Assembly: GCA_019359375.1 (NCBI GenBank)
Contig: JAHHHL010000018.1
Location: 1 to 64,000 of the forward strand
Source of the DNA: Lyngbya sp. HA4199-MV5
Lineage (GTDB): Bacteria > Cyanobacteriota > Cyanobacteriia > Leptolyngbyales > Leptolyngbyaceae
DNA length: 64,000 nucleotides
Direction: 5' to 3'
Shown in pieces: positions 13,541-62,087 of the stretch. The notes under the pieces were generated by a model. It worked only from the letters and a program-made list of their open reading frames with translations. It did no database searches and was not told where the DNA came from. Made by a program: the position numbers and the translations under genes. Numbering within the stretch: position 1 is the stretch's first letter; the number at the start of each line of letters is the position of its first letter.

Positions 13541-14914
13541 TTAAAACACCTGCTTTTCTATCAGCGTGCTATACGTTTCTCGCTGCCGAATGAGACGATG
13601 GCTATTGTTTTCTAGCAGCACTTCAGCAGGACGGGGACGATGCAAAAAATGAGACGACATCGCGTAGCCGTAAGCTCCCACATCCAGGATGGCGAGAAGA
13701 TCACCACTTTTAAGAGCTGGTAATTGACAACGTTTGCCCAAATAATCACGAGAATAGGTCGTGTTGCCACACACATCTGTCAGGTGCAAACACGGTTCTT
13801 TGGCTGCTTCTTTGGCTGCTTGTTCGCCGTTCAAAGCGACAATTTTACGATAGCCACCGTGTACAGATGGCACCGAAAGATTGGCAATGGTGGTATCCAC
13901 TCCCACGATTTGTTTGTCGGCTTGCCATTTGACCGAGACCACTTGAGTGAGAAGAATGGCACAGCCCGCGATCGCCGCCCGTCCTGGTTCCACAACAAGC
14001 TGAATGGGTTGATCGACTTGAGAGAGGCGATCGCTTAACGCATCCCCAAACTGCTGCCAATCAAACGCGACACCATCATGATGATAGGGATAGCCAAACC
14101 CACCGCCAAAATCGAGATAAGCCCAATCGGGTAGTTGGCTGGCAGTCGCAAGCACGGTGTCGATCGCCTCTGTAAATGCAGTCGTCGCATTCGTCCCGGT
14201 GCCCCGATAAAAATGCAGTCCGCTGATGGTTAGCCCAGCCTGGTTTGCCAGATTAACCGCTGCCGGGAAGTCATCTGGATGTACGCCAATGCGACTTTCG
14301 CCCGTAAGCGCTGGGAGGTTGAGGCGAAGTCCAAGGCGAGGGGAGGAGAGGGGAGAGGAGAGAGGGGAGAGGGGAAGAGGATTTGTTGTTACTGGGAATG
14401 CCGCGCCTCCCTGTTCTCCTATTTCCTTATCGACTCTTTGCAACTCCTGCCTTCTGCCTCCTGCCCTCTGCCCTCTGCCTTCTTTTAACAGCGATCGCCA
14501 AACCTCACAACACAACTCCAACTGTGCAAGGCTATCTAGATTCAGCGTCGTCACACCCCAGCGGAAAAGCTGCTCCATTTCGGCACGATTCAGGTTGCTG
14601 CCGCTGTAGATGATTTGCGCTGGGTGAAAGCCCGCGTGGAGTCCCAGGTAGATGTCACCAGGGGTATTGGCATGAAGCCCCCACCCAGCATTGCGGAACA
14701 TTTGGAGGAGGGCGATGTTGCCGTTGGTGACGCTGGCAAAGTGGAAGCGCGTGTGGGGATAGGCGATCGCATCCGTAATGTGCTGGATGGTTTGACGCAG
14801 GCGATCGCCATCGTAGACGTAGAGCGGGGAACCGTAAGTGTCGAGGAGTTGCGTTGCAAGACGAAGGGTTAGAGGGTGTAGGGTGTGGGGTGTAGGGTGT
14901 GGGGTTGCTACCAT
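13541..14914 (-). CDS. Fold-type III PLP-decarboxylase homologue lacking the PLP lysine
   Basis: Related to diaminopimelate/ornithine decarboxylases: GLHFYRGTGTNA, LDFGGGFGYPY, VVEPGRAAIAG, DVCGNTTYSRDYLG and LDVGAYGYAMSSHFL are all present in the right order. However, where the family has YA-x-KAN with the lysine that forms the Schiff base, this protein reads FASVTN: the lysine is Val62. The start at 14914 overlaps the upstream synthetase stop by 7 bases (ATGGTAG), which suggests translational coupling; an earlier in-frame start exists but lies inside that gene. Residues ~141-195 are an in-frame low-complexity insert. It may be a pseudoenzyme, a binding protein or an enzyme with changed chemistry. 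Confidence 0.85.
   Translation of the reverse strand: MVATPHPTPHTLHPLTLRLATQLLDTYGSPLYVYDGDRLRQTIQHITDAIAYPHTRFHFASVTNGNIALLQMFRNAGWGLHANTPGDIYLGLHAGFHPAQIIYSGSNLNRAEMEQLFRWGVTTLNLDSLAQLELCCEVWRSLLKEGRGQRAGGRRQELQRVDKEIGEQGGAAFPVTTNPLPLSPLSSPLSSPRLGLRLNLPALTGESRIGVHPDDFPAAVNLANQAGLTISGLHFYRGTGTNATTAFTEAIDTVLATASQLPDWAYLDFGGGFGYPYHHDGVAFDWQQFGDALSDRLSQVDQPIQLVVEPGRAAIAGCAILLTQVVSVKWQADKQIVGVDTTIANLSVPSVHGGYRKIVALNGEQAAKEAAKEPCLHLTDVCGNTTYSRDYLGKRCQLPALKSGDLLAILDVGAYGYAMSSHFLHRPRPAEVLLENNSHRLIRQRETYSTLIEKQVF
14326..14493. repeat. In-frame hairpin-like heptamer insert in the decarboxylase homologue
   Basis: On the plus strand it reads as a purine arm (GAGGGGA-type units), a short mixed loop, then a pyrimidine arm (CTGCCTCCTGCC-type units). 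It replaces a short loop just before the RLGLRLNLP strand and keeps the reading frame, adding about 55 residues (GGRRQEL, PLSSPLSSP). Confidence 0.8.
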
Positions 14915-16737
14915 TGCGTTGTCTCCCGTTGCTGTTGAAGGTAGACGCGTCCTAACCAGGAGGGGAGCCAAAAGGGATGGTTGAGTGAGAACGCAGGCGA
15001 CGTGCCCAAAACCGTGTGCTGCCACAGTTGCCACATCAGCAAGAGCCAGAGGCTTTCACCAATGCGACGACCCTGGAGTGTCCCAAACTTGCCAGCCGCG
15101 ATGTGCGTTGCAACATGGGGTTGCCAGATGCCTTGAGCGTGTAGGGTGGCAGGATTCAACCATGTGCCCAGGTCTCGCCATCGCCCATTCAAACACCAGG
15201 AGGTTAAGGGTACGCCCATACCACGCTTTTCTCGCCAAACAATGTCGGGGGGCAACCAGGCTGCAACCGCACGCTTCAGAATATATTTTTCGCAAGCGGC
15301 CTGTAGATGTAACGTTCCTGAAAGCTGAAACGACCATTCAGCAAGGGCTAGATCGCAGAAGGGCGATCGTACCTTCAAGCCATGAGCCATGCCCAAACTG
15401 GTGGCGCGAGGATGGATATTTTGTGCGCCTTTGAGCATCAACGTGGCACGCCGCAACCGATGGAGCAGTGCCGTTGAAAACGTTGGATCGAGGGCATCCT
15501 GAAGCCAGGTTTGCGGTGTGATGTCTGTAAGTTGAGTGAAAACCTTTGACTGAAAAAGAGCTTGTTCATAGCCCCAAAGGCGATGAAACGTGCGGAGATA
15601 CTGTTGTTCAAACGGTTCCGTTGCGTGCACCGTTTGATACAGATCAGCGGCGATCAGGGGTTTATTCGTCCAGCCTGCAAACAGTTGATCACCACCTTCT
15701 CCGTTGAAAATTACCTGTACGTCCTGGCTTGCTGCCTGCATGAGTAGAAAGAGCGGCACGGTTACACCATCGCCAAAGGGCAAATCTAATGCCTGAACGG
15801 TGGGGCGAAGAGCGTGACGTACCTGTTTGGCACCGGCATCTACTTTCACTAGCGGTATGTTGAGCCACTCGGCAACCTGTTCGGCGTAGGGAAATTCTGA
15901 AACGCCTTCTGTGCCGAAATCCAGCGTGTAGGCATGGACTTTAACACCCGCTTCGACCAGGAGTGCCGCGACGATCGACGAATCTAAGCCTCCCGACAGC
16001 AAAACGCCAACTGGCTCATCGCCCAAATCAGCCGTTTGACGGGCTACAGCGTCTTTGAGTAACGATCGCAGTTGCACAATCGCCATTTCCTCATCGTGAA
16101 TCTGATGGGGTGCTTCCTGCCATTCAAACGATCGAGTGGTGCTGGAGGCTGTGATCGTTTCGGATATATTATCGGCAAGCCAAATTTGTTCTGTGCCCGC
16201 GGCGATCGACCCAATCTGATCAATTGGGGTTAGCGGAGTGGGTACATACGAGAAGCAGCTATAGCCATAGACCGCAGGTACGCTGATCTGAGGCGCTTCG
16301 ACCAGAGGCAGCAGTAGACTCAGGCGCGACGCAAACCAGATGACTTGTCCAATCTGAGTCCAGTACAGCGGCACATGACCAAAGGGTTCTCGTCCCAGAC
16401 GCAGGCGATCAAGATCATGCACAACCCAGGCATCCGCAAACGCACTTTCCCCGTGGCAAGCTACCCCTGATGCAGACAGGGCTGCAAGCAAACTGGGTGG
16501 AAAACAGTCACAGTCTGGCTGGGATAAGCCTACGTATGAAACACCCCAGAGGCAACGGGTAGTCATTTCTGGTAAAAGCGCTGTTGCTGGCGATCGACTG
16601 CATCGTCGGGCGGTTGGTTCACTACCGTTACTCAGGATACCCGTGAGCTGTTCTTCCAAATTAGCTTGCTTGCCATATCCCCAGTAGCCTACGACTTGAT
16701 GCAGCTTGAGCGCGTGTAATGGGATAGTCTGACCCAT
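14908..16737 (-). CDS. Asparagine-synthetase-like amide ligase without glutaminase cysteine
   Basis: The C-terminal half is a true synthetase domain: GVLLSGGLDSSIVAALL (PP-loop, near residue 245) adenylates a carboxylate, and EKRGMGVPLTSW near the end is typical. The N-terminal half resembles a class II glutamine amidotransferase, but the expected MCGIAGYWG start is LHQVVGYWG, preceded by 11 extra residues. The catalytic Cys2 is therefore His13 and ammonia release from glutamine is unlikely. Known relatives with this loss include beta-lactam synthetases and lasso-peptide cyclases, which form amide bonds with internal amines. No lasso protease or precursor is seen nearby. GGGGAAAG precedes the ATG; it lies 18 bases after the upstream gene and overlaps the next. 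Confidence 0.87.
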   Translation of the reverse strand: MGQTIPLHALKLHQVVGYWGYGKQANLEEQLTGILSNGSEPTARRCSRSPATALLPEMTTRCLWGVSYVGLSQPDCDCFPPSLLAALSASGVACHGESAFADAWVVHDLDRLRLGREPFGHVPLYWTQIGQVIWFASRLSLLLPLVEAPQISVPAVYGYSCFSYVPTPLTPIDQIGSIAAGTEQIWLADNISETITASSTTRSFEWQEAPHQIHDEEMAIVQLRSLLKDAVARQTADLGDEPVGVLLSGGLDSSIVAALLVEAGVKVHAYTLDFGTEGVSEFPYAEQVAEWLNIPLVKVDAGAKQVRHALRPTVQALDLPFGDGVTVPLFLLMQAASQDVQVIFNGEGGDQLFAGWTNKPLIAADLYQTVHATEPFEQQYLRTFHRLWGYEQALFQSKVFTQLTDITPQTWLQDALDPTFSTALLHRLRRATLMLKGAQNIHPRATSLGMAHGLKVRSPFCDLALAEWSFQLSGTLHLQAACEKYILKRAVAAWLPPDIVWREKRGMGVPLTSWCLNGRWRDLGTWLNPATLHAQGIWQPHVATHIAAGKFGTLQGRRIGESLWLLLMWQLWQHTVLGTSPAFSLNHPFWLPSWLGRVYLQQQRETTQW

Positions 16738-27290: not shown

Positions 27291-29087
27291 CTAAATGCTG
27301 ATATTAGCGGCAAACGTACCCAGATACTTCTGTCGCCATTGGGCATCGGCTTTGCGATCGGTCTTAAGCTCCAATACCCGAACGCTAGTTGTGGGCAATG
27401 GATTAAGCCGCTGTTCTAGTTGTTGCCAGGTTGTGATACCTTCGTGCTCAACTCCGTATGTAGCGCAGAGTTTGGCAAAGTCGATCGCCTGCGGTGTAGC
27501 AAAAAACGACTCGAAGGATGGGTTGTCTTGGGCGATCGGTAGCATCTCGAAAATACCACCACCGTTGTTGTTGATCAGGACGATCGTCAGGTGCCCCACA
27601 AAATGCTTTCGCAGCAGAAACCCATTCGTATCGTGCAGTAGCGCCAGATCGCCTGTGAGCATCACACTACTTTGCTGTCGATGCGCGATGCCCAGGGTGG
27701 TAGACAGCGTACCATCGATCCCATTTGCGCCCCGATTAAAAAAGGGTTGCACTCTGGAATTTCCGGGTGCCCAAAACCATTCGACATCGCGCACGGGCAT
27801 ACTGCTGTTGATGAACAGTGACGTTCCTGTAGACAGCACTTGAGAGAGCAACCAGGCTGCTTTGCCTTCAAACAGCGTTTCGGTCTCGCGCATGGTTTGA
27901 TCAACGTTCTGTCTAACCTGGGTTTCGATCGTCCGCCACAACCTGAGATAAGGAGTTTCGATCGCTGCCTCTTGAGCAAGGGTCTGGATGAAAGCGGCGA
28001 TCGACAGCCGTAGATGCGTCGTGTTGCCGTGTAATGGGTCAAGATTTCGCCCATCGGGATCAATGATCCACTGGCGCGGTTGGGTTGCTTCTAGCCAAAC
28101 ACGAAGCTGCTTGCTGGTCGGCATACCACCAACACGAATGACCGTTTCAGGTGCCAGCTTGTCTGCCAGTACCGGATTTCGCAAGATTTGGTCATAGGTG
28201 CTAACCAGGTTGGGATTCAAGTCAGCGTAGTTGCGTAGAGGTGAAAGCCCTTCTGCCAGCACAGGATAACCGAGGGCTTGAGAGAGATGGGCGATCGCAC
28301 GGCAGTAAGCTTCTGGATCTTCGGGTTGGGCTGTGCCTGCGATGATAATGCCGTTGGGGGAATAGGGTACAGGGTGAGGGGTATAGGGTATAAGGTGTGT
28401 GGAAAAGCTAACGTCTGCTCCCTGTCCCCTATTCTCTGTCCCCTGCCCCCTGCCTTCTGCCTTCTGAAACGGAACTATAGAGGCGAAAAAAGCTTCAGCG
28501 TTAAAGGTTTCTACAAGCGATTGCGCGTGAACTTGCGGAATGGGCGCAAGCGGTTCACGGAAGGGAAGGTTGAGATGGACGACTCCAGGAACAGGATAAA
28601 GGGCTTTCTCCCAGGCGTGAATGATGGTTTGCCGGAGGTAAGTGAACATGGGCTGCTCCAGAGATGGGATCGCCAGTTCGGTTTGCCAGTTGGGAAAGGT
28701 GCCGTAGAGTTTGTGCTGGTCGATCGCCTGTCCTGCATTGCAATCCCGTAGTTCAGGGGGGCGATCGGCAGTCAGAATGATCAGGGGCACACCGCTTTCT
28801 GTCGCCTCAATGACCGCAGGATAGAAGTTTGCGCCTGCCGTTCCAGAGGTGCAGATCAGTACGACAGGACGGTGGCTCTGACGGGCAAGACCCAGGGCAA
28901 AGAAGGAAGCCGATCGCTCATCCAGTACGGGGATTGCTTCGATGTGGGGATGCTTGGCGAACGCGATCGCGAGAGGCGCTGAACGGGAGCCAGGACAGAC
29001 GATCGCGGTAGTCAACCCCAGCCGATAGAGCGTCTCCGCCAAAATGGAAGTCCAGACCAGGTTGGTATTCGTAAAATCAAGGGTCAT
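27291..29087 (-). CDS. menD: SEPHCHC synthase MenD with in-frame repeat insert
   Basis: Thiamine-diphosphate enzyme that adds 2-oxoglutarate-derived succinic semialdehyde to isochorismate. N-terminal domain: VCPGSRSAPLA, LDERSASFFALGLA, CTSGTAGANFYPAV. C-terminal cofactor site: LTGDLALLHDTNGFLL and LINNNGGGIFEML. Residues ~202-242, at the domain linker before GIIIAGTAQPEDPEAY, are a low-complexity insert (GRGQGTENRGQGAD, PYTPHPVPY) encoded by repeat DNA. All active-site blocks are intact, so the enzyme is probably functional. Upstream lies MITE copy 3. Probably co-transcribed with menB. Confidence 0.96.
   Translation of the reverse strand: MTLDFTNTNLVWTSILAETLYRLGLTTAIVCPGSRSAPLAIAFAKHPHIEAIPVLDERSASFFALGLARQSHRPVVLICTSGTAGANFYPAVIEATESGVPLIILTADRPPELRDCNAGQAIDQHKLYGTFPNWQTELAIPSLEQPMFTYLRQTIIHAWEKALYPVPGVVHLNLPFREPLAPIPQVHAQSLVETFNAEAFFASIVPFQKAEGRGQGTENRGQGADVSFSTHLIPYTPHPVPYSPNGIIIAGTAQPEDPEAYCRAIAHLSQALGYPVLAEGLSPLRNYADLNPNLVSTYDQILRNPVLADKLAPETVIRVGGMPTSKQLRVWLEATQPRQWIIDPDGRNLDPLHGNTTHLRLSIAAFIQTLAQEAAIETPYLRLWRTIETQVRQNVDQTMRETETLFEGKAAWLLSQVLSTGTSLFINSSMPVRDVEWFWAPGNSRVQPFFNRGANGIDGTLSTTLGIAHRQQSSVMLTGDLALLHDTNGFLLRKHFVGHLTIVLINNNGGGIFEMLPIAQDNPSFESFFATPQAIDFAKLCATYGVEHEGITTWQQLEQRLNPLPTTSVRVLELKTDRKADAQWRQKYLGTFAANISI
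28355..28480. repeat. In-frame hairpin-like repeat insert in menD
   Basis: On the plus strand it reads as a purine-rich arm (TAGGGTACAGGGTGAGGGG), a short mixed loop, and a pyrimidine-rich arm (CCCCTGCCCCCTGCCTTC). The architecture matches the inserts in menE and the decarboxylase homologue. It adds about 40 residues in frame. Confidence 0.8.
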
Positions 29088-33557: not shown

Positions 33558-34997
33558 ATGCGCTATCAATGGCAATTTCAACCATACCGACGGCGCTTCA
33601 AGCAAGCGTTAGAGACCAGTCACGGACTCTGGACGTTACGAGAAGGCATCATTTTACGGTTAGTGAATGAAGCTGGAAACGTTGGTTGGGGCGAAATTGC
33701 GCCGATTCCGTGGTTTGGCTCCGAAACCCTTGAGCAAGCATGGTCGTTTTGCCATCAATTGCCGTCAGCGCTTTCTGAAGAGCTAATTTTTTCGATTCCG
33801 AATGCCCTGCCCTGCTGTCAGTTTGCCTTTGAGTCGGCGTGGGAGAGAATGAAAGAGCAGACGCTCGACAATGCAGCACCGCAGAGACGCAGCGGCGCGG
33901 AGGGGGAAGCGGCTTTTGTCGATGAGGGTCTAACACTCCGACCTCAGAACTTGAATAGTCAAGCTCAGAACTCAAATATTGCAGTTCAGAACTCAAATAT
34001 TGCAGTTCAGAACTCAAATATTGCAGTTCAGAACCTGACACTCCGACCTCAGAACTTGATTATTCAAGCTCAGACCTCGATCGTTGCAGTTCCGCACTCG
34101 AAAACTCTAGCTCAGAACTCGAAGTTTTTACCTCAAAGCTCGATAACTCCACTTCAGAACTCGGACATTGCAGTTCAGAACTCGGAGCTTCAACCTCAGA
34201 ACTCAAAGCTTCGACCTCCGCACGCGATCGTCGCAGTTCCAAGCTCGATCGTTACAGCTCAGAACTCGATACTTCAGTCTCAGGTTTCAACAATTAACCC
34301 TCGCGCTGTCTCCCCTCGCCCCTCCCTCCTCTCCCCTCTCCCTCCTCTCCCCCACAGCGTGCTTCTCCCCGCAGGCACCGCCGCCCTCCACGCTTGGAAG
34401 CCACTCTGGCAAAAGGGCTTTCGCACCTTTAAGTGGAAAATTGGGGTGCAGGCGATCGTCACCGAGGTTGAGCTACTTCACGAACTCACTCAAACGTTGC
34501 CTCCAACCGCAAAGTTACGCCTGGATGCTAACGGTGGACTTAGCCTTAATGAGGCGATTCAATGGCTCCAGGTTTGCGACGCGCTGATCGACAACCCAAA
34601 CCACTCTGCTGCGATCGAATATATCGAGCAACCGCTAGATACAGCGCAGTTTCAGACCATGCAGGACTTAAGCCGTCGCTACCAAACGCCGATCGCCCTG
34701 GATGAATCCATCGCCACACTCCAACAGCTACAAACCTGCTATGCAAACGGTTGGCGAGGCATTTTTGTCATTAAACCTGCGATCGTCGGCTCTCCCAAAC
34801 ACCTGCGTCAGTTTTGCCAGGAACATTTGATCGATGCTGTCTTCTCGTCTGCCTTTGAAACCGCGATCGGACGACAGGCTGGACTGCAATTAGCAGAGGA
34901 ACTGGGGAATCTCGATCGGGCAATGGGCTACGGCACGACTCACTGGCTTGATGACGCTGATATAGATGACGTTGAGCAGCTATGGCAGACCCTTTGA
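33558..34997 (+). CDS. menC: o-Succinylbenzoate synthase MenC with large in-frame repeat insert
   Basis: Enolase-superfamily dehydratase making o-succinylbenzoate. The protein is 479 residues against about 320 for relatives. The excess is one insert, residues ~104-268, between the N-terminal capping domain (LPCCQFAFESAWERM) and the barrel (LLPAGTAALHAWKPLW). The barrel keeps the catalytic set: FKWKIG, LRLDANGG, IEYIEQPLD, PIALDESIA and FVIKPAIVG. Start codon abuts the menA stop; the last 16 bases overlap menE, so translation is probably coupled. Confidence 0.95.
   Translation: MRYQWQFQPYRRRFKQALETSHGLWTLREGIILRLVNEAGNVGWGEIAPIPWFGSETLEQAWSFCHQLPSALSEELIFSIPNALPCCQFAFESAWERMKEQTLDNAAPQRRSGAEGEAAFVDEGLTLRPQNLNSQAQNSNIAVQNSNIAVQNSNIAVQNLTLRPQNLIIQAQTSIVAVPHSKTLAQNSKFLPQSSITPLQNSDIAVQNSELQPQNSKLRPPHAIVAVPSSIVTAQNSILQSQVSTINPRAVSPRPSLLSPLPPLPHSVLLPAGTAALHAWKPLWQKGFRTFKWKIGVQAIVTEVELLHELTQTLPPTAKLRLDANGGLSLNEAIQWLQVCDALIDNPNHSAAIEYIEQPLDTAQFQTMQDLSRRYQTPIALDESIATLQQLQTCYANGWRGIFVIKPAIVGSPKHLRQFCQEHLIDAVFSSAFETAIGRQAGLQLAEELGNLDRAMGYGTTHWLDDADIDDVEQLWQTL
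33867..34360. repeat. ~490-bp in-frame repeat block inside menC
   Basis: A degenerate 21-nt array built on TTGCAGTTCAGAACTCAAAT (seven residues such as AVQNSNI per unit), at first almost exact (33970-34035), then diverged. It is flanked by a GCAGAGACGCAGCGGCGCGGA word on the left and a CTCCCCTCTCCCTCC pyrimidine tract on the right. The GAACTCA word also occurs in the glcD spacer, pointing to a common repeat source. Confidence 0.88.
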
Positions 34998-36811
34998 CCT
35001 ACCTGAAGCAGCGATCGGGCGATGATTGGCTCATTGGTTACGATAGTCAGGCGTTTTTTGCGTTGGCAGAGGAAGTGTTGGGAGAGTTGCGATCGCGTCC
35101 TGATCCCAAAACACCGCTCACTATTCTGCTAGCAGAACGCAATCCCCTTACCTTTCTCGCCCATTTCATCGCTGCCTGTGCCGCTAACTGCCGCCTTGTT
35201 CTCGCCAACCCCGATTGGGCACCAGCAGAATGGCAACAGGTGTTTGAGTTAGTGCAGCCTGATGTTATTTGGGGTGAGGCAGCGAGAACTGAGAGGCAGA
35301 AGGCAGAGGGCAGAGGGCAGAAGGTAGGAGAAGCAGAGAGCGCAGGGGAAGCAGGGGAAGCAATTCAACACTCGAAACTCAACACTCAACACTCTGCCCC
35401 TGTTCCTCACTTCATACTCCCCACCCCTCACCCCTCACCCCTCACTCCTCACATCCTCATCCCCACAGGCGGCACCTCAGGCAACATCCGCTTTGCCATC
35501 CACACCTGGGAAACTCTCATGGCATCCGTTGATGGGTTTTGCCAGTATTTTGAAGTTGAGCAGGTTAATTCCTTTTGTGTGTTGCCGCTTTATCATGTCA
35601 GCGGCTTGATGCAATTTTTGCGATCGTTCACCACAGGCGGCAGGTTAGTTGTCTTGCCGTTCAAAGCGGTTGAAAGGGGCGATCGGAGCGCTATAAACCC
35701 TGAAGACTTTTTTCTATCCCTGGTGCCAACTCAGCTTCAGCGGTTGATGGATGAAGGCAGGAGGCAGGAGGCAGGAGGCAGGAGGCAGGAGGTAGAGGGA
35801 GCAGGGGAGGCGAGGGAAGCAGGGGGAGCCATTCAAAACTCGAAACTCTCTAGCGCAGCGGCACGGAGTGCTACTCAAAACTCCTCCTCAACTCCCGACT
35901 CCCGACTCCCGACTCCCGACTCCCGACTCCCCTGGCTCTCCCGTTTCCACACCATTCTCCTCGGTGGCGCACCCGCCTGGTCAGATCTGCTCGATCGCGC
36001 CAGAAGTCACCGCATCCGTCTTGCGCCCACCTACGGCATGACCGAAACCGCTTCCCAAATTGCAACCCTCAAACCAGACGACTTTCTCAACGGGCACACC
36101 AACGCTGGACACGTCTTACCCCACGCCCAAATCACCATCCGCAACCCATCCGGCGACATTCTCCCCCCGCACCAAATCGGCACCGTCACCATTCAAGCAA
36201 CATCACTCGCATGGGGCTATTACCCAAGGTTTCCAGACGCTACAAGAGCTACCTTCCCCTTAACAGATGCTTTACCCTCATGCCAGATCTCATGTTCGGG
36301 GGGTTTGGGGGAGTTAGGACCCCAAAAGGCGGGGGACCGGGGGGAAGTCCCCCGGACACAATCTTCAAACGAAGCCGAGATGCTCGCACACCAAAGCTTA
36401 GAGCGAAGAGAAAAAGGATTTCAACCCGACGACCTTGGTTATTTTGATGCTGACGGCTATCTCCACATCATCGGACGACATAGCGACAAAATCATCACCG
36501 GCGGCGAGAATGTCTTCCCCGCAGAAGTCGAAGCCGCCATCCGATCAACAAACCTAGTCCAGGACATATGTGTGCTTGGGATCGACGATCGCCACTGGGG
36601 ACAAGCGATCGCAGCCGTTTATGTTCCCCTCCTTACCCATCCCTCGATCGCAACCATCCAGACCGCGTTAGAGACGAAGCTAACCAAATTCAAACGTCCC
36701 AAACACTGGATTGCAGTAGCACAGGTTCCCCGCAACGCTCAGGGTAAGGTGAATCTACTGCACGTAGAGGCGATCGCTAAAGCTTGGCTGTCTGTAGCAA
36801 CCATTGACTAA
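34982..36811 (+). CDS. menE: o-Succinylbenzoate-CoA ligase MenE with three in-frame repeat inserts
   Basis: Acyl-adenylating enzyme (ANL superfamily) that makes OSB-CoA. Core motifs are intact: P-loop IPTGGTSGNIRF, substrate region LLGGAPAW, APTYGMTETASQI, QPDDLGYFDADGYLHIIGR, SDKIITGGENVFPAEVEAAI and catalytic Lys in RNAQGKVN. Length is 609 against about 460-480 usually. Three inserts explain the excess, at residues ~99-158, ~257-318 and ~420-478, all encoded by repeat DNA and all just before or between conserved blocks. Last gene of menA-menC-menE; its 3' end overlaps the thioesterase gene on the other strand by 35 bases. Confidence 0.94.
   Translation: MADPLTYLKQRSGDDWLIGYDSQAFFALAEEVLGELRSRPDPKTPLTILLAERNPLTFLAHFIAACAANCRLVLANPDWAPAEWQQVFELVQPDVIWGEAARTERQKAEGRGQKVGEAESAGEAGEAIQHSKLNTQHSAPVPHFILPTPHPSPLTPHILIPTGGTSGNIRFAIHTWETLMASVDGFCQYFEVEQVNSFCVLPLYHVSGLMQFLRSFTTGGRLVVLPFKAVERGDRSAINPEDFFLSLVPTQLQRLMDEGRRQEAGGRRQEVEGAGEAREAGGAIQNSKLSSAAARSATQNSSSTPDSRLPTPDSRLPWLSRFHTILLGGAPAWSDLLDRARSHRIRLAPTYGMTETASQIATLKPDDFLNGHTNAGHVLPHAQITIRNPSGDILPPHQIGTVTIQATSLAWGYYPRFPDATRATFPLTDALPSCQISCSGGLGELGPQKAGDRGEVPRTQSSNEAEMLAHQSLERREKGFQPDDLGYFDADGYLHIIGRHSDKIITGGENVFPAEVEAAIRSTNLVQDICVLGIDDRHWGQAIAAVYVPLLTHPSIATIQTALETKLTKFKRPKHWIAVAQVPRNAQGKVNLLHVEAIAKAWLSVATID
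35277..35455. repeat. In-frame repeat insert 1 in menE
   Basis: Purine arm (GGCAGAGGGCAGAAGG units), then a loop of AACACTCGAAACTCAACACTC, then a pyrimidine arm (CCCCTCACCCCTCACTCC). It is placed directly before the ATP-binding loop IPTGGTSG. Confidence 0.85.
35752..35935. repeat. In-frame heptamer insert 2 in menE
   Basis: About five GGCAGGA heptamers, then a CATTCAAAACTCGAAACTC loop, then about five CGACTCC heptamers. The two heptamer arrays translate as GGRRQEA-like and TPDSRLP-like seven-residue repeats. Confidence 0.88.
36298..36356. repeat. G-rich palindromic insert 3 in menE
   Basis: Several runs of five to six G, ending with GGGGGGAAGTCCCCC, a perfect small hairpin. Encodes SGGLGELGPQKAGDRGEVP in a position where relatives lead straight into the FQPDDLGYF block. 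The G-runs might form a quadruplex. Confidence 0.7.
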
Positions 36812-62013: not shown

Positions 62014-62087
62014 CGGGACTGGCGGGATTCGAACCCTCGACCTACCGCTTAGGAGGCGGTCGCTCTATCCTGCTGAGCTACAGCCCC
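62014..62087 (-). tRNA. tRNA-Arg (anticodon CCU)
   Basis: On the minus strand the sequence GGGGCTGTAGCTCAGCAGGA starts the acceptor and D arms. The anticodon stem ACCGC/GCGGT holds the loop CTCCTAA with anticodon CCT, reading AGG. The T arm is GAGGGTTCGAATCCC-like and the acceptor closes with CAGTCCC plus discriminator G. No CCA is encoded. Confidence 0.95.

Follow-up and report, generated by a model that had tools for sequence, protein, structure and literature searches.

How can tandem arrays of a seven-base unit lie within the reading frames of conserved enzymes? The question is raised by the genome of Lyngbya sp. HA4199-MV5, a draft of 6.9 Mb in 95 contigs (assembly GCA_019359375.1), and in particular by the first 64,000 bases of contig JAHHHL010000018.1, referred to here as the window. 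Downstream of menA in the window are menC and menE, parts of which make up positions 33867-36415, and each of menC, menE, menD and a gene for a LysA-like decarboxylase holds an insert within one open frame. A reading of the bases by themselves (the sequence-only reading) had proposed that heptamer arrays persist in genes because they are neutral to the frame in which they land. The explanation that we consider probable is that the arrays are known repeats of the STRR type (the short tandem heptamer repeats of cyanobacteria), tolerated and translated as loop filler and filtered for a stop-free orientation and for a length that is a multiple of three. According to this explanation, short tandem heptamer repeats, often in an ordered composite, would spread into protein loops able to take up additional length, and the copies in genes would survive if no stop interrupts the sense strand and the insert as a whole measures a multiple of three bases. 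The surviving inserts would be translated as flexible loop filler of low complexity, their units would change and homogenise over time, and purifying selection would keep the core of the enzyme.

The arithmetic underlying the sequence-only reading is sound. Seven equals one modulo three, so a single frame reads all seven cyclic triplets of a heptamer, and a stop-free heptamer is open in all three frames and encodes one cyclic heptapeptide. Two arrays of menE illustrate this. The gene encodes o-succinylbenzoate-CoA ligase (34982-36811, + strand; 609 residues; NF005662 in four stretches, E=7.5e-181, score 601.7 bits and thus under the cut-off of 640; AMP-binding domains) and carries three inserts. 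Site 2 (35747-35932, + strand) begins with 5.4 copies of AGGCAGG with zero mismatches (35755-35792), which encode GRRQEAGGRRQE, and continues with 9-mer-like filler, AAAACTC units and 5.9 copies of ACTCCCG (35891-35931), which encode TPDSRLPTPDSRLP; both arrays were found by TRF with 100% matches. Site 1 (35276-35449, + strand) is composed of a GGCAGAA-type array, GCAGGGGAA 9-mers, AACACTC/AAACTC units and a CACCCCT array, with lag-7 segments at 35290-35332 and 35408-35458. Period-7 arrays were called by a lag identity scan with a threshold of 22/28, and the insert at site 3 (36218-36421, + strand), which was considered as a heptamer array, was rejected as such since it reaches 14/28 and contains a G/C palindrome (about 36295-36358) instead. 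This palindrome is a dispersed element with four copies in the genome, the menE copy included, and L002, L005 and L006 also carry it, in frame, at the corresponding site. Of the other copies (L323, L324, L325), two are in open reading frames (ORFs) of 1021 and 751 residues and one is outside long ORFs; the two ORFs have weak coding scores and hold the palindrome in another frame or on the opposite strand relative to menE.

The placement of arrays in frame inside menE, menD and the decarboxylase, as claimed from the bases alone, is borne out, and menC can be added. The latter gene (o-succinylbenzoate synthase; 33558-34997, + strand; NF002739 in two stretches, E=3.2e-138, above the cut-off) has an insert at 33852-34340 (+ strand) made up of a lead-in, an array with a 21-base period (about 33935-34218; TRF) and the start of a pyrimidine array (34308-34353). 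Residues 98-106 of T. elongatus MenC (2ozt_A), which is without the insert, correspond to residues 98-262 here. The site is also filled in Tildeniella (L003, 437 residues) and FACHB-321 (L007, 458 residues), whereas three congeners in which the gene is complete are short at this site and without the large insert (L002, 330 residues; L004, 344; L077, 358). A DNA search found weak relatives of the 21-base array (33930-34270) elsewhere in the genome, in four places, and a protein search found six other places, all six with stops. The menD insert (28359-28469, - strand, in a gene at 27291-29087; TIGR00173, E=9.8e-145) contains an array at 28429-28468, and its site varies among 13 aligned relatives. 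The decarboxylase insert (14315-14487, - strand, in a gene at 13541-15034) contains arrays at 14338-14381 and 14442-14485, and its site varies among 11 aligned relatives; the protein matches TIGR01048 in two stretches (E=1.9e-73) with 247.4 bits, under the cut-off of 297.9.

Period-7 arrays are abundant well beyond these four genes. The window has 19 lag-7 segments, none at lags 5, 6 and 8-13, seven at lag 14 and one at lag 15. A sample of 1.264 Mb, consisting of the window and 60 stretches of 20 kb, gave 217 arrays at lag 7, 0-10 at each of lags 4-6 and 8-13, and 24 at lag 15, with 114 at lag 14 and 70 at lag 21 as harmonics of lag 7. An array was counted as intragenic when it was inside an ORF both flanks of which score as coding by dicodon score. 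By this definition 48 of the 217 arrays (22%) are intragenic, in 28 ORFs, and the coding share of the sample is about 71% by score; the arrays are thus under-represented in genes, yet genes are not closed to them. Fourteen of the 28 interrupted ORFs were scanned for families, and 13 matched one and one did not. These scans included 10 of the 24 array-bearing ORFs outside the window, those from the first 464 kb, and nine of the 10 could be assigned to a Pfam family: LarC, a Mur ligase, a glutaredoxin-like protein, valyl-tRNA synthetase (ValS), MiaA, LarB, nicotinate phosphoribosyltransferase, NAD synthase (NadE) and ChlD (a name taken from NCBIfam). Arrays are also present in UvrA, TopA and CrtD in the stretches examined from relatives. 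An ORF of 1430 residues (L038:3149-7438, - strand) holds six heptamer arrays and has no family match.

The arrays inside genes are biased towards openness on the sense strand. All three sense frames are open in 38 of the 48 intragenic arrays versus 137 of 338 strand-readings elsewhere (Fisher p = 6.5e-7), although some of this bias comes from the method, as openness of the ORF is part of the intragenic call. Read on the antisense strand, 19 of the same 48 arrays have no stop in any frame, and this is true of 1428 of 4800 random segments of the same array-bearing ORFs. In the relatives' stretches, at a threshold of 0.2 and with row L062 left out because it overlaps L063, 18 of 28 intragenic arrays are sense-open in all three frames versus 16 of 62 elsewhere. 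The dominant unit is sense-open in all 45 intragenic arrays that have one (three have none), and among the non-intragenic arrays the unit is closed on both strands in 25 of 169. This enrichment supports the sequence-only reading in part, but frame-neutrality is not supported as the full explanation. The property is common to every unit length that is not divisible by three, with 82, 77, 70, 65 and 59% of random units of 4, 5, 7, 8 and 10 bases being free of stops whatever the frame; since about 69% of heptamers are open and other unit lengths share the property, it fails to explain why heptamers dominate. Neutrality also covers the reading of the array only. The exit frame is unprotected, as the gain or loss of one unit shifts the frame, and therefore the whole insert must be a multiple of three bases long. 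The scarcity of arrays in genes also counts against neutrality as the full explanation, and so does the make-up of the composites described next.

Many of the arrays are part of a single composite, about 160 bases long, whose modules follow a set order. Neighbouring arrays are arranged purine-rich and then pyrimidine-rich in 22 pairs, with the reverse order seen in none within 150 bases and in one within 300. A composite copy from MiaA used as a DNA query gave at least 52 matches in the genome, with 40 of the 761 candidates from a first look being scored. Places covering at least 100 bases of the query were pooled from the DNA search, a protein search and the 464-kb sample, giving 51 distinct composites; 31 are in genes, and all 31 have the same orientation. 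In 21 of the 51 composites a frame is open on the opposite strand as well, so openness alone would rarely give such one-sidedness (estimated at about 2e-4). The genic composites contain 9-mers and filler as well as heptamers, and only six of the 31 are open as a whole in all three frames. It may be, though we offer this tentatively, that the composite (GGCAGAA-type units, GCAGGGGAA, GAGACACGG-type units, AAAACTC and ACACCCC/ACTCCC, purine-rich at the 5' end and pyrimidine-rich at the 3' end) represents a previously undescribed dispersed element which has one coding orientation in genes, forms in-frame loops in many enzymes and has its units homogenised in place by conversion. The genic inserts were presumably copied from elsewhere.

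Comparison with relatives indicates that the same loops are occupied again and again by different repeats. In congeners of Lyngbya sp. HA4199-MV5, the loops of MenE, MenC, MenD, the decarboxylase, MiaA and ValS hold other heptamers at other lengths. Among 81 cyanobacterial MenE proteins, a period-7 array is present at site 1 in 42, at site 2 in four and at site 3 in four. Identity at lag 7 in site 1 inserts of at least 60 nt is 48%, compared with 27-34% at lags 4-6 and 8-13; the lag-7 value is 25% in the core and 29% at site 3, which has no period-7 signal. The MenE of Symploca sp. SIO2E6 (L122:3995-5959; 655 residues) carries an extended GGRRQKA array in site 1. Close Nostoc pairs show that the units can change while the length is kept, as from GGGGAAT to GGGGCAT in L113/L114. 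Across 24 independent MenE pairs with core DNA identity of 0.86-0.98, site 1 differs by 0-168 nt, the differences all being multiples of three because the sites were cut on codons. A change of length in 21-base steps was considered and rejected, one of the 24 pairs differing by 21. The enzyme core is under purifying selection, with a dN/dS of 0.11-0.16 for MenE versus six congeners, values that are rough at a dS of 0.76-1.21.

The refilling of the same loops could also mean that the inserts are useful, being selected as linkers, flexible or charged, that adjust how soluble or stable the enzyme is or how it binds its partners. The phase in which the composite is read is relevant here. The T-free 9-mer module falls into the three phases in 23, 2 and 4 of 29 copies (reference copy included), and the favoured phase is found in 14 of 19 when the count is limited to composites with two or three open frames. 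The corresponding phases of the heptamer modules, which are partly ambiguous since the alignment can slip by one unit, are 19/4/8 for module E, 12/5/13 for B and 16/10/3 for A. The bias of the 9-mer hints that the peptide is seen by selection, but it was obtained with one alignment method, stops at the junctions may explain part of it, and a direct count of the 9-mer motif gives only six genic cases, four in phase 0 and two in phase 1. Moreover, the sequence, length and charge at a given site differ between congeners, and many relatives have short loops. Selection for useful linkers appears unlikely, and the inserts are probably nearly neutral.

It is possible in principle that an insert is never part of the finished enzyme, either because it is cut out at the RNA or protein level or because the ribosome skips it. 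The inserts are located in the middle of enzyme folds, and skipping could also rescue two out-of-frame genes of one relative (G010, see below). Predicted structures are consistent with insertion into tolerant loops. AlphaFold2 models built with 41 and 34 sequences have the inserts of menE and menC largely at a confidence (pLDDT) below 50 and the cores mostly at 80 or above, although the low values arise partly because the inserts do not align; the regions below 50 are residues 279-310 (site 2), 412-462 and 464-477 (site 3) of menE and residues 117-135, 154-219 and 221-252 of menC. Against removal or skipping, the inserts are open in frame in this genome, their units differ from site to site, and a comparison of boundaries by eye revealed no motif common to the sites. 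No intein or intron is among the listed Pfam and NCBIfam matches of the scanned interrupted ORFs, and no Rfam intron is found in the window. Only one Rfam match in the window reaches the gathering score, a tRNA gene (62014-62087, - strand). A shared RNA hairpin was considered as a common feature and rejected, since seven heptamer composites of this genome fold no better than shuffles and have no structure beyond composition (z -1.0 to +2.0). Site 1 of a Nostoc MenE (L105), by contrast, does fold better than its shuffles (z -2.5), and the value for the menE site 3 palindrome is z -1.6. Removal or skipping is very improbable, and we expect the loops to be translated into the mature protein.

Frames stay open across the inserts for the most part, which favours loop filler with a filtered length. 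MenE is in one open frame in all 80 named loci (the top 80 out of 541 confirmed; one ORF runs off its contig) and in 28 of 29 G-loci; MenD in 31 of 39 genomes searched; MiaA in 27 of 30; and the decarboxylase in 12 of 12 orthologues, the Lyngbya gene included, internal stops among its relatives having been ruled out as breaks because they are outside the best ORFs. For ValS, no frame break is found among the matches listed; those of G007 and G015 run into the end of a contig, and those of G043 and G044 are weak only. Arrays are accordingly not confined to places where frames break, which the sequence-only reading had named as the outcome that would count against it; most array-bearing genes are open.

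Several observations nevertheless weigh against the view that the arrays are tolerated, length-filtered STRR-type repeats. Besides the contributions of method to the sense bias and to the low confidence of the inserts, and the absence of a hairpin in the heptamer composites, the comparison used one genome per species and relatives too distant for changes in unit number to be followed. The remaining eight of 39 genomes for MenD show a frame change (G010, G013, G014, G041), a gene on two contigs (G005, G023) or no orthologue (G047, G049). The MenD break crosses a period-7 array only in G010, those of G013, G014 and G041 having no array at the break. MiaA of G010 shifts frame across a long array, MiaA of G018 is on two contigs, and the gene was not found in G006. 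At least two breaks are present among the MenE matches listed: in G014, a draft that is 87% complete, MenE (L022:404-1899) is split into three ORFs with breaks at the margins of sites 1 and 2, and in G041 it is broken where no array is present. The genome of G010 is a three-contig assembly in which menD (L331) and miaA (L332) are out of frame across their arrays and one miaA unit is a base short; these changes could be real or due to homopolymer error, either being possible. Breaks like those of G010 are to be expected if neutrality does not extend to the exit frame.

Those same breaks speak for regarding the arrays as contingency loci, in which slippage of the seven-base unit switches the enzyme on and off as in known phase-variable heptanucleotide genes, since a change of one unit shifts the frame. 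A comparison of four made-up heptapeptide strings with solved structures gave one clear match, 3jqy (E=1.7e-6). Residues 3-30 of chain 3jqy_B, a polysialic acid O-acetyltransferase, consist of RLKTQDS heptads, which are nearly equal to cyanobacterial module B (KTQNSKL). We take these heptads to be of the NeuO type, in which a gene contains an encoding heptanucleotide repeat and undergoes phase variation. The likeness is that a heptamer array gives rise to a heptapeptide array close to the module B peptide; the difference is that the 3jqy heptads are near-perfect and close to the N-terminus of one enzyme, whereas the arrays described here have degenerate units and are found in many genes, in loops away from the ends. 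For H. influenzae, too, an ORF containing a heptanucleotide array and undergoing a frame shift has been described (PMC2651432). Against switching, the intragenic arrays are degenerate and mostly internal, with several per gene and a median longest perfect tract of 20.5 nt, the host genes encode enzymes such as ValS and NadE, and the ORFs are open in most relatives. Contingency switching has a small chance of being the correct explanation. Assembly error or decay of pseudogenes could also be invoked, given the draft state of the genome and the cases of G010 and G014, where frames are lost at an array or close to one, but this is scarcely credible. Independent assemblies agree, among them the near-complete Cylindrospermum NIES-4074 (L131) and the one-contig G019 (L009/L068), and the purifying selection on the core argues against pseudogenes. 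Eleven junctions in the Lyngbya genome and four in the relatives are coding on both sides without a single ORF, and all five Lyngbya junctions that were tested have different genes on either side (5/5).

Tolerated STRR-type repeats thus remain the probable explanation, and it is useful to place them beside known systems. The short tandem heptamer repeats of cyanobacteria reportedly date from the work of Mazel in 1990. The arrays of Lyngbya sp. HA4199-MV5 resemble them in having a seven-base unit that is G-rich or C-rich, present in many copies, dispersed and mainly outside protein genes; they differ in that they occur in frame inside many enzymes and as part of an ordered composite. Heptanucleotide repeats of the form GGGGA(C/T)T are reported for Nostoc (PMC4692102), and cyanobacterial heptanucleotide repeats are reported to be under-represented in ORFs, as here. 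In print, STRR repeats have been placed between genes or, to judge by how Vioque 1997 is titled, within the gene for RNase P RNA. Titles and abstract openings, with subscription journals mostly outside their scope, contained no description of in-frame heptamer repeats in cyanobacterial enzymes. A second system is formed by the Rickettsia palindromic elements (RPE), which are said to have been described by Ogata in 2000 as defined palindromes of about 100-150 bp that form selfish-looking in-frame inserts in unrelated genes. The resemblance to RPE that had been suggested for the arrays applies to their behaviour, as they are in frame in unrelated genes (28 ORFs), and does not extend to the hairpin, as the heptamer composites are arrays of changing units that fold no better than shuffles in this genome. 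The menE site 3 palindrome behaves like an RPE and is likewise found in other ORFs. The PARCEL repeat (PMC2996958) is similar in being a dispersed coding repeat with dyad symmetry, but it is amphipathic, has 25 residues and occurs in ORFs to which no function is assigned and not in enzyme loops.

If the arrays are indeed tolerated and translated, they represent a natural and frequent route from a non-coding simple repeat to a protein loop, with 28 interrupted ORFs in about one-fifth of one genome. At this scale the conditions of survival, which are a stop-free orientation, a length divisible by three and a tolerated loop, can be counted. Annotations and models of cyanobacterial enzymes should be read with the caution that they include loops derived from repeats, and the many natural pairs with different inserts would be available for testing how well enzymes tolerate insertions.

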